Shown in pieces: positions 14,598 to 30,407 of a DNA stretch of 36,800 nt. The DNA is taken from positions 377 to 37,176 of the forward strand of contig MHCC01000002.1 in the NCBI GenBank assembly GCA_001816475.1. Direction: 5' to 3'. The position numbers and the translations under genes were made by a program. Position 1 is the stretch's first letter. The number at the start of each line of letters is the position of its first letter. The notes under the pieces are model-generated. The model was not told where the DNA came from and made no database searches. It saw nothing but the letters and a program-made list of their open reading frames with translations. The stretch is from Candidatus Blackburnbacteria bacterium RIFCSPLOWO2_01_FULL_40_20. GTDB lineage: Bacteria; Patescibacteriota; Microgenomatia; UBA8517; UBA10165.

Positions 14598-15170
14598 TTA
14601 TTTCACTCTTTCTATATATTCCCCGCTTCGCGTATCAACTTTAATTTTGTCCCCCACCTTGATAAAAAGAGGAGCTCGCGCGTCAAGCCCATTTTCAAGC
14701 TTTACATCTTTATAAATATTTGTCGCACTATTCCCTTTAACGCCAGGAGCTGCCTCAGAAACTGCCAAAATAACGTTTGGTGGCAACTCTACTCCTAATG
14801 GTAATTCGCGATCAGCCTGCGACCAAAAAAGAACCTCAATTACTTGTCCCTCGTTTAGAAATTTAAGGTCGTGTCCTAAGATATTATTACCCACCTCAAG
14901 TTGTTCATAAGTTGTGGGATCCATAAAAACAGCGTTGCTTCCATCGCGGTATAGATACTGAAGTTTTCGTTTTATAGTCGTTATCGGCTCAATTGATGCG
15001 CCTGACGTAAAAGTCTTCTCCTCAACAGCTCCGTTTCTAAGGTTACGTGCTGCAACTCGAATAATAGCGTTTCCCCTCCCCATTTTTACATGAGAATAAT
15101 CAATTACTTTATAGGGTTGACTGTCCATCTGAAACGTTGTTCCCTTTTTTAGACCTGTAACTGGAATCAT
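14598..15170 (-). CDS. efp: elongation factor P
   Basis: MIPVTGLKKGTTFQMDSQPYKVIDYSHVKMGRGNAIIRVAARNLRNGAVEEKTF. Confidence 0.93.
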   Translation of the reverse strand: MIPVTGLKKGTTFQMDSQPYKVIDYSHVKMGRGNAIIRVAARNLRNGAVEEKTFTSGASIEPITTIKRKLQYLYRDGSNAVFMDPTTYEQLEVGNNILGHDLKFLNEGQVIEVLFWSQADRELPLGVELPPNVILAVSEAAPGVKGNSATNIYKDVKLENGLDARAPLFIKVGDKIKVDTRSGEYIERVK

Positions 15171-15196
15171 ATTTTGTATTGTATCAAACTTGTGCC

Positions 15197-15230
15197 TAAA
15201 AAAACAAACCCCGCTATGCGAGGTTTGTTT
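15197..15230 (-). terminator. rho-independent terminator of the 138-aa gene
   Basis: aaacaaacc...ggtttgttt stem with TTTTTTT tail on minus strand. Confidence 0.8.
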
Positions 15231-15268
15231 AAGAGAGCCTACTGGCACGCTGAGCAGAACTCACTAAC

Positions 15269-15685
15269 TTATTGACCGGCTGGTTGAGTTTGTGTAGTTT
15301 GCTCGCCACTTTGAGTATTTAATGCTGCTTTTCTTGCTTTTACTGCAGCAATTTTTGCTTCCCTGTTAGCCTTAAACGTTGCTAATTTTTGCGCAAGGGC
15401 CTGCTTCCTGTCTGCCTTTGCCACCGCTTGGACATCTTTAATGCAGGCTACTCTTTGTTTTTGAATATCCTTAAACTGCGACCTCTTCTCCTGTTTTATA
15501 ATCTTTCCGTCTTTGACGTCCTGCCAGATCGGCTTTAACAGGCCGTTGGCAGTTTTATTACAAACTTTAACCGTTTGGCCTAAATTTGGGGCGGTTTCTT
15601 GTGCAAATACCGGAAGAGCAGCCACTCCCAACATCATAGATACTGCGATTGAACCAATTACTATTTTTCTCGCTGTCTTTATCAT
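15269..15685 (-). CDS. secreted hypothetical protein, Lys/Ala-rich
   Basis: signal peptide IVIGSIAVSMMLGVAALPVFAQE. Confidence 0.75.
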   Translation of the reverse strand: MIKTARKIVIGSIAVSMMLGVAALPVFAQETAPNLGQTVKVCNKTANGLLKPIWQDVKDGKIIKQEKRSQFKDIQKQRVACIKDVQAVAKADRKQALAQKLATFKANREAKIAAVKARKAALNTQSGEQTTQTQPAGQ

Positions 15686-15740
15686 GTAATCATCACCCTT
15701 CCTATTTGTATTACGCAGATTGCCCTTAAAAAGTTTCAGG

Positions 15741-15770
15741 TTGGATCAAAAGAAAGAACTGAGGTATAAT
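15741..15770 (+). promoter_or_regulatory. promoter of tRNA-Leu leader
   Basis: TTGGAT - 18 bp - TATAAT. Confidence 0.5.
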
Positions 15771-15781
15771 TGAAGCCATGT

Positions 15782-15870
15782 ACTCATTTAACTCAGGTTG
15801 CAACCTTTGTTAAATGGGCGTGAACCTAAAATACTGTTATTAGAGATCAAGCTGGAGTATTTTGGGTATA
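15782..15870 (+). repeat. two-hairpin dispersed element, copy 1 (tRNA-Leu leader)
   Basis: tttaac..gttaaa hairpin then cctaaaatact..agtattttggg hairpin; homolog at 30021-30110. Confidence 0.7.
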
Positions 15871-15871
15871 A

Positions 15872-15955
15872 GCCGCGGTGGTGGAACTGGTAGACACGTA
15901 GCTCTCAAAAAGCTATGAGCGCAAGCTCGTGACGGTTCGAGTCCGTCCCGCGGCA
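15872..15955 (+). tRNA. tRNA-Leu(CAA)
   Basis: gccgcgg/ccgcggc acceptor, long variable arm, ggttcgagtcc T-arm, ctCAAaa anticodon loop; CCA not encoded. Confidence 0.93.
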
Positions 15956-16025
15956 CTTACACTTAGCTAGTGATTGTTCCGCTAAGCGAGACACACATAG
16001 ACAAGTACTGTTTCCTCTAGAAGAA

Positions 16026-16385
16026 TTACCCCCAAGCAACAGTTTTGATATTGAGGTTTTTTCGGTCCATTGGAACCAAGGACAAAAAGAAATTAACCAC
16101 AGTATCCTGGTCATATGGCTTACAAGAAAAAATATCTATTAAAAATTCATTTGTGCTTGCAAATGTGTGAATTGAGATATGGGAATAATCAATTATCAAG
16201 AATCCACTAAGCCCCGGGTTCTTTGGAATTCCTTCCATAACAACCGGTCCGTAAAGTATACTCATTCCGATTTTTTCAGGGAGCTTTTCAAGAAAGTTCT
16301 TTACGAAGGTTGTATCGTTAACTTTTTCTGGTGGACAGTTTTCCACGTCCACAATAATATGATATCTTTTTTGCTGCATTCTCAA
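16026..16385 (-). CDS. S-adenosylmethionine decarboxylase-like (SpeD family) protein
   Basis: YSHISIHTFASTNEFLIDIFSC matches the SpeD pyruvoyl cleavage region. Confidence 0.75.
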   Translation of the reverse strand: MRMQQKRYHIIVDVENCPPEKVNDTTFVKNFLEKLPEKIGMSILYGPVVMEGIPKNPGLSGFLIIDYSHISIHTFASTNEFLIDIFSCKPYDQDTVVNFFLSLVPMDRKNLNIKTVAWG

Positions 16386-28768: not shown

Positions 28769-29992
28769 TTACTTTAGAAGCTCAATCGCTTTTTCAAGCT
28801 GGTTATCCTTTTCCGAGTCATCTCCTTGAGTTATTTTAACATCCGGTTCAAGTCCTGTTCCATTAACCCAAGTCCCCTTTGGCGTTAACCACTTGGCAAT
28901 TGTTATGTGTAAGCCCGCTTGGCCAATTTCTTGTGACTCTTGAATTGTACCCTTTCCAAAAGTTGTGTCCCCTACAATTTGGCCACGACCCGAGTCCTTA
29001 ATTGCGCCGGCAACTATCTCGGAGGCGGACGCACTTCCTTTATTAACTAATACAATCAGTGGTATATTGGGAAGTTTTGGATTCCCAGTAACTTTTAGTT
29101 CTTTATTATTTCCCTTACCGCTTTCAATAACTACCACGCCACTAGACATGAATTCAGATGCAATAGTAACTGCGCCGTTAAGATACCCACCAGGATTATT
29201 TCTCAAATCGAGGATAACACCCTTGCCATTTTGATCTTTAATTTTCTTGATAGCGTTGTTCCATTCGTTATCTGTTTGATCACCAAAACGAAGCAGTTTA
29301 AGGTGGGCTATGTTTTTGTCGGGTCCCTCAAAAGTCAAAATAACAGAAGGCACTTCAATTTTGGCACGAGTCAACTCTTTTTCAAATGGCTTGTCCACAC
29401 CTTCCCGAGTAAGCACTAAAGTAACGGCAGAGCCAGCCTTTCCTCGTATTAAGTCCACTGCGTCTGGCAAGCTCATACCAACAGTTCCTATCTCAACATT
29501 CTTTTCTTTATCCTTTATTCCAACAATAAAGTCTCCTGCCTTAATCCCTGCTTTTTGAGCTGGAGAACCGTCCAGAGGTGCAATGACCGCAAGCTGAGTT
29601 CCCTTAAATCCAATTTGTATTCCAACACCTTCAAATTGTCCACCTAAATCTTCTTGAGTTCGCTTTTGTTCTGTGGGAGGTAAAAATACAGTGTATGGGT
29701 CGCCAACTGCCGCGACCATTCCCTTAATTGCTCCATAAACCATCTCCTTTGTATCAAGTTTTGTCTTGTCGTAATATGAGTTTTCCAAACGATCCCAGAC
29801 ACTCCAAAAAAGTGCAAACTCCACATTTTGTTTGTCTTGAGGTGTTGCGCGGTTTATCGTAACTTGAGGAACAATTTTTTCTCGATTTACAACAACGTCT
29901 TGATGTCCAAGCCACCAACCACCAAAAAATGACACGAAGCAAAAAGACAAAATAAGCGCAAAGAGTCGAACCTTGGAAAGAGAAACTTTCAT
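28769..29992 (-). CDS. S41 C-terminal processing protease
   Basis: DPYTVFLPPTE, PDZ, LRNNPGGYLNGAV, NKGSASASEIVAGAIKDSGRG. Confidence 0.94.
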   Translation of the reverse strand: MKVSLSKVRLFALILSFCFVSFFGGWWLGHQDVVVNREKIVPQVTINRATPQDKQNVEFALFWSVWDRLENSYYDKTKLDTKEMVYGAIKGMVAAVGDPYTVFLPPTEQKRTQEDLGGQFEGVGIQIGFKGTQLAVIAPLDGSPAQKAGIKAGDFIVGIKDKEKNVEIGTVGMSLPDAVDLIRGKAGSAVTLVLTREGVDKPFEKELTRAKIEVPSVILTFEGPDKNIAHLKLLRFGDQTDNEWNNAIKKIKDQNGKGVILDLRNNPGGYLNGAVTIASEFMSSGVVVIESGKGNNKELKVTGNPKLPNIPLIVLVNKGSASASEIVAGAIKDSGRGQIVGDTTFGKGTIQESQEIGQAGLHITIAKWLTPKGTWVNGTGLEPDVKITQGDDSEKDNQLEKAIELLK

Positions 29993-30020
29993 TATTTATT
30001 TAAGAATAACTGAATTATAA

Positions 30021-30110
30021 ACTCGTTTAACTCGAGCTTGCAACTCTCGTTAAACAATTTTGAACCCAAAATACTGTTGTTGAGATGCAAACTGGACTAT
30101 TTTGGGTATA
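30021..30110. repeat. two-hairpin dispersed element, copy 2
   Basis: gtttaac..gttaaac then cccaaaata..tattttggg; aligns with 15782-15870. Confidence 0.7.
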
Positions 30111-30152: not shown

Positions 30153-30407
30153 TTAACTTACTTTAACGCTAAATGGAATTAATGCCAGGAATCTTGCTCT
30201 TTTTATCTCGCGGGTTAGCAACCTTTGATGCCTTGCACAAATGCCGCTTCTGAAACGTGACACTATCCTTCCTCTGTCGTTGACAAATTTGGACGCCAAA
30301 TCTGCCTCTTTGTAGCTTGGAGCAACTTTTTCTTTACAAAAAGGACAGAACGCGTTCAAGACGCGCCTTGTGTGTTTTTTTTGAACTCGCTTTTTTTCTT
30401 TTGCCAT
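30153..30407 (-). CDS. rpsR: 30S ribosomal protein S18
   Basis: CPFCKEKVAPSYKEADLASKFVNDRGRIVSRFRSGICARHQRLLTREIKRARFLALIPF. Confidence 0.95.
   Translation of the reverse strand: MAKEKKRVQKKHTRRVLNAFCPFCKEKVAPSYKEADLASKFVNDRGRIVSRFRSGICARHQRLLTREIKRARFLALIPFSVKVS

Follow-up and report, generated by a model that had tools for sequence, protein, structure and literature searches.

Short palindromic elements with IS630-like ends in Microgenomates genomes, one of them next to a tRNA-Leu gene

Two copies of a short repeat in the window (the whole stretch of 36,800 nucleotides analysed here, from a Candidatus Blackburnbacteria genome) are very probably non-autonomous mobile elements (MITEs) of the IS630/Tc1-mariner family. 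The repeat is short and non-coding, has many dispersed copies with imperfect terminal inverted repeats, and occurs as the same element in unrelated flanks. Its ends are common to an IS630 element, and an IS630-family (DDE_3) transposase is encoded in the genome.

The two copies in the window

The features of the two loci are as follows.

15765..15770, + strand: TATAAT, probable -10 box of tRNA-Leu (sequence; spacing in relatives G001 and G004)
15779..15870, + strand: putative MITE copy 1, between the -10 box and tRNA-Leu (model R1, 74 bits)
15783..15818, + strand: arm/hairpin 1 of copy 1 (folding, arm comparison)
15824..15867, + strand: arm/hairpin 2 of copy 1 (folding, arm comparison)
15872..15956, + strand: tRNA-Leu (CAA), a host gene outside the element (ARAGORN; Rfam RF00005, 55.8 bits)
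28769..29992, - strand: S41 protease gene, neighbour of copy 2 (Pfam)
30018..30110, + strand: putative MITE copy 2 (model R1, 93 bits)
30025..30055, + strand: hairpin 1 of copy 2 (folding)
30064..30107, + strand: hairpin 2 of copy 2 (folding)
30153..30407, - strand: rpsR, gene for S18, neighbour of copy 2 (Pfam)

Sequence, folding, ARAGORN and Rfam confirmed the arrangement described in the initial annotation, in which TATAAT is followed by about 90 nt with two hairpins and then by tRNA-Leu. This TATAAT was not called by a consensus promoter scan because it has no good -35 before it. The orthologous tRNA-Leu genes of G001 and G004 have a -10-like box 11 and 9 nt upstream, respectively, and no element. 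When copy 1 was removed from the window with one TA kept, 11 nt remained between TATAAT and the tRNA, the same as in G001. Around the tRNA gene (14598-16385 of the window), we observed genes for elongation factor P (14598-15248, - strand) and S-adenosylmethionine decarboxylase (16026-16385, - strand) and a 138-aa ORF (15269-15685, - strand).

The second copy was where the initial annotation had placed it. The best match in a whole-genome search was 30021-30110 (80% identity, E 7.5e-15), and the model gave the full element as 30018-30110. In each of the five family relatives examined, rpsR lies immediately next to the S41 protease gene and leaves no space for an element; in the window, copy 2 stands between the two genes. 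Since removal of copy 1 restores the spacing of a relative and the two genes flanking copy 2 are adjacent in five relatives, both window copies are best read as insertions. Copy 1 would have moved the probable -10 box about 92 bp away from tRNA-Leu. If the TATAAT is a promoter, the transcript would begin near 15777 and include the whole element as the 5′ leader of pre-tRNA-Leu, a hairpin-rich leader that RNase P would probably remove. A neutral passenger insertion beside tRNA-Leu is our default reading.

The element family and its IS630 partner

The element is about 92 nt long and contains no transposase gene. It starts with TATAC(T/C)C or TAAACTC and ends with G(G/A)GTATA, and nothing is conserved outside. 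In copy 1 the left end is degenerate (TGTACTC for TATACTC) and the right end is GGGTATA. Reading inward from either end gives the same motif, TATACyC-NNNNN-ACTCnAGTTTGCA, and these are the imperfect terminal inverted repeats. Nearly all copies have TA at both ends, which fits the IS630 family, known to transpose into TA with duplication of the TA (PMC2170065). In the mechanism we propose, an IS630 transposase, probably that of the full-size element still present in the window genome, would bind the subterminal motif ACTCnAGTTTGCA in both arms and cut at the TATAC/GTATA ends; as the ends and the spacing suggest, the element would then be pasted into a TA, which would be duplicated.

More copies were detected by the same whole-genome search, on contigs C1, C15 and C17 of the window genome and in relatives, so that the initial annotation's concern that only two copies might exist fell away. 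The copy on C17 is very similar to copy 1 (BLAST E 1.7e-29). The window genome has five complete copies and one half copy; the half copy, with hairpin 1 only, lies upstream of a membrane-protein-like gene on C15 (L023:2990-3042). With a covariance model built from an alignment of 22 complete copies, 58 relatives were searched and the element was found in 17. A single genome gave as many as 29 matches; in other genomes, some matches are one copy read again on the other strand. The Woesebacteria genome G031 has about 28 copies. The element was also present in 15 of the 238 genomes drawn from across the class.

A pattern scan of 85,462 species returned 99 stretches. Nearly all of the 80 listed came from Microgenomates (Gottesmanbacteria, Daviesbacteria, Woesebacteria, Curtissbacteria, Roizmanbacteria, Blackburnbacteria and others) or from unassigned Patescibacteria; the few exceptions among these 80 were an archaeon, Bacteroidetes, Acinetobacter and two unclassified bacteria. 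The arm pattern had no match in 2.9 million viral contigs, and a viral carrier was rejected on this ground. Several loci of the Gottesmanbacteria genome PFMK01 (L158, L159, L183, L185, L186, L188, L202 and L216) belong to a related, longer subfamily that is present many times in this one genome and has variable internal palindromes in hairpin 1 and a different stem in hairpin 2.

Most copies (59 of 73) overlap ORFs by 30 nt or less, while 92% of random placements overlap more (simple ORF calls). Among these 73 copies the orientation relative to tandem genes was mixed, 22 sense and 16 antisense; 27 copies were in divergent and 7 in convergent gaps, which is only a hint because the ORF calls are crude. 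A right-hand half element was observed within a ribosomal protein operon, between apparent rplB and rpsS genes (L051:2940-3057, genome G036).

One Gottesmanbacteria genome has six copies with 98-100% identity, yet their 60-base flanks differ from one another about as much as random sequences do. Near-identical copies with unrelated flanks were also found, as pairs, in two Daviesbacteria genomes, one other Microgenomates genome and two Woesebacteria genomes. Identical copies in unrelated flanks indicate that the family moved recently. A counterpart of one G031 locus in G012 is without the element; it is too diverged to be read base-exactly.

Some matches of the arm pattern without a second arm ran into the end of a gene. 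In two such loci, L210 and L182, the adjoining gene encodes an IS630-family transposase (NF033545, 228 and 171 bits, cut-off 100; PF13358). L210 has 31-nt inverted ends containing TATACCCCTCT. When the L210 transposase served as the query, single copies turned up in the window genome and in G055, which both carry the element; the other 56 relatives gave no match. The window-genome gene, on contig C20, is an uninterrupted frame of 342 aa (L242:2798-3826) with PF13358 (DDE_3) at 5.5e-33 and NF033545 at 219 bits (cut-off 100). Just upstream (L242:2600-2730), we observed a fragment resembling the central part of a further IS630 transposase, which seems to be an older, truncated copy.

In the window genome, the hairpin-2 arm matches the 5′ end of the IS630, TATACTCCTCATACTCCAGTTTGCAT (score up to 18, 0 of 4000 controls), whereas the hairpin-1 arm matches the 3′ end of the IS630, AACTAACTCAGGTTTGCAA, which is cut by the contig end (score up to 14, 1 of 4000 controls). 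In copy 1, the matching stretches are the hairpin-1 outer arm TNACTCAGGTTGCAA, for the 3′ end, and the reverse complement of hairpin 2, beginning TATACCCAAAATACTCCAG, for the 5′ end. The two arms thus correspond to the two different ends, one each, which is the strongest single link to IS630. In all, an IS630 transposase lies beside the same terminal repeat in L210, L182, G055 and the window genome. Another Gottesmanbacteria genome, distinct from the one with six near-identical copies, has three identical IS630 3′ ends with a transposase C-terminus at contig ends, and the frame there terminates in LLTDNFQLVPA, like the window-genome transposase. The mobile repeat proposed in the initial annotation is borne out by the dispersed family, the insertions at the window loci and the ends matching IS630.

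Related IS630 elements are now absent from most element carriers. Among the class members, 2 of 238 have the IS and 15 of 238 the element, and none of 16 other genomes reached through pattern matches has the IS. In 16 carrier genomes, a search for unpaired arms flanking a transposase returned matches that were nearly all full elements; the partner came from the wider scan. MAG assemblies tend to lose multi-copy IS, and therefore the absence of the IS is weak evidence.

Palindromic arms and alternative readings

Each arm is its own palindrome, and the element therefore forms two hairpins. Their stems covary: in 19 of 21 pairs both sides change, with 197 such cells compared to 53 in shuffles. 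Of all cells, 89% pair, compared to at most 52% when slid. The alignment has 79 rows, a few of them the other strand of copies already included, and was fitted to the structure; an unfitted alignment of 22 rows agrees with the covariation result. The initial annotation had allowed that copies might show no compensatory changes, and the alignment shows that they are abundant. Its own example, a T.G pair of copy 1 replaced by C-G in copy 2, is real. The copy 2 stem is not simply improved, as it has a broken pair near its top (ACT..ACT).

When half-hairpins were swapped between copies, both hairpins were weakened, from -10.2 to -6.2 and from -11.9 to -9.1 kcal/mol. In contrast, the pairing energy between arm 1 and arm 2 was not copy-specific (-17.2 own, -17.1 swapped kcal/mol), and long-range arm-to-arm pairing was rejected as the conserved structure. 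The local palindrome is thus what copies conserve one by one. Mismatches in the stems were 83 G.T and 67 A.C. These similar counts, together with the lack of a strong strand preference among the insertions (22 sense, 16 antisense), suggest a DNA palindrome or the lack of a strand preference rather than one functional RNA strand.

Several copies differ inside the hairpins. In one (L040:3014-3107, G036), the interior of hairpin 2 runs in the opposite direction to that of the family, as though it had been flipped between the arms of its own stem. Within hairpin 2, two copies in G031 (L053:2894-3007 and L054:2839-2981) carry an identical short insert, GAATAACAGCGGATTGCCGCT. Other copies have different short palindromic inserts, which are nested small repeats. 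Within one genome, AAAA and TTTT are exchanged blockwise on both sides of hairpin 2.

The other reading in the initial annotation was a tRNA leader domain, that is, a tRNA-specific structured leader with a regulatory or processing role in pre-tRNA-Leu. The position directly between the -10 box and the tRNA and the stable two-hairpin fold would suit such a leader, but copy 2 lies between protein genes with no tRNA beside it, other copies are in many unrelated gene contexts, and the orthologous tRNA-Leu genes of G001 and G004 do without it. Nor does the element belong to an Rfam family: the Rfam covariance models found only tRNA at gathering level, and a permissive search of 15700-15960 gave only below-cut-off matches over the tRNA gene. 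Such a leader is highly improbable and is already refuted as the origin. We also consider it unlikely, if less so, that the element is a conserved RNA, either small or cis-regulatory, that travelled with its genes under selection as RNA. The strong covariation, the copy-specific stems and the weak excess between divergent genes in crude gene calls could all be explained in this way. Against it, G.T mismatches are not clearly above A.C, both orientations are used, identical copies are in unrelated flanks, and the ends match an IS. The RNA-like character suggested in the initial annotation is thus not needed. Two inverted hairpins also resemble a BIME, and many genomes of the order (29 of 58) have genes for Y1_Tnp, so that mobilisation by a RAYT (Y1) transposase, as for a REP/BIME-type repeat, had to be considered. 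This, too, is very improbable, as the ends match IS630 and no Y1_Tnp was found in the window genome, G012, G031 or G032, which include the richest carriers; this absence largely refutes it. Many of the Y1 transposase genes in the relatives G001-G057 encode about 225 aa, RAYT-like in size, and are not linked to the element. An integron attC site was rejected, because the boxes RYYYAAC/GTTRRRY are not general: ATTTAAC/GTTAAAT was seen in some copies and CTCTTAC/GTAAGAG in many.

Template switching, which would perfect imperfect palindromes during replication, is an alternative only to selection as the cause of the covariation, not to the MITE reading. It may explain the compensatory changes, though we hold this tentatively. 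The strand-symmetric mismatches are consistent with it, and the AAAA/TTTT exchanges and the inverted hairpin-2 interior of L040 point to template switching at palindromes, with selection on the hairpins as the alternative. Selection would also account for the fact that both arms stay palindromic in many genera. Full-size IS630 copies, judged by eye from their sequence, do not have the arm hairpins at their ends; the hairpins therefore arose, or were kept, in the MITE for another reason. It is possible, if rather doubtful, that selection keeps each arm palindromic because a local hairpin or cruciform aids persistence: the IS630 transposase or the host might recognise the structure, or the hairpin might be transcribed and then protect or trim host RNAs, for example pre-tRNA. 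If so, this end architecture would be undescribed for IS630 MITEs in the literature compared.

Relation to known elements

A search of the open-licence literature for MITE and Candidate Phyla Radiation (CPR) terms together found no paper. The MITE reading would document such a family, with a probable full-size parent, in the Microgenomates of the CPR, which have small genomes regarded as streamlined. An element without a gene can slip between a promoter and a tRNA and there mimic a conserved RNA leader. Covariation alone is no proof of a functional RNA, since palindromic mobile DNA gives the same signal.

REP/BIME repeats with RAYT (PMC2817692) are similar in being inverted hairpin pairs scattered between genes. 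The present element differs from them in its TA ends, its IS630 arms and the several rich carriers without RAYT. Correia/NEMIS in Neisseria and ERIC in enterobacteria, compared by description and not by sequence, are likewise small palindromic repeats with TA termini that are mobile without a transposase gene (PMC2229807). For these, no source IS is known to the review PMC2229807, whereas the present element has a matching IS630 in the same genome. ISY100 of Synechocystis (IS630/Tc1-mariner) represents the family of the presumed moving enzyme. It inserts into TA with TA duplication, and its N-terminal helix-turn-helix domains bind the ends (PMC2170065). ISY100 differs in being an autonomous full-size element; its chemistry would apply here by analogy.

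Among known elements, the most similar in kind is RUP, a 107-bp repeat unit in Streptococcus pneumoniae that has been ascribed to IS630-Spn1 (PMC2229807, PMC3049150). Both elements are about 100 bp long, have no gene, carry TA ends, are intergenic and dispersed, and have ends like those of a resident IS630. They differ in sequence and host. RUP is described as folding its terminal repeats onto one another; in the present element, by contrast, each arm is a palindrome of its own and arm-to-arm pairing is not specific to a copy.
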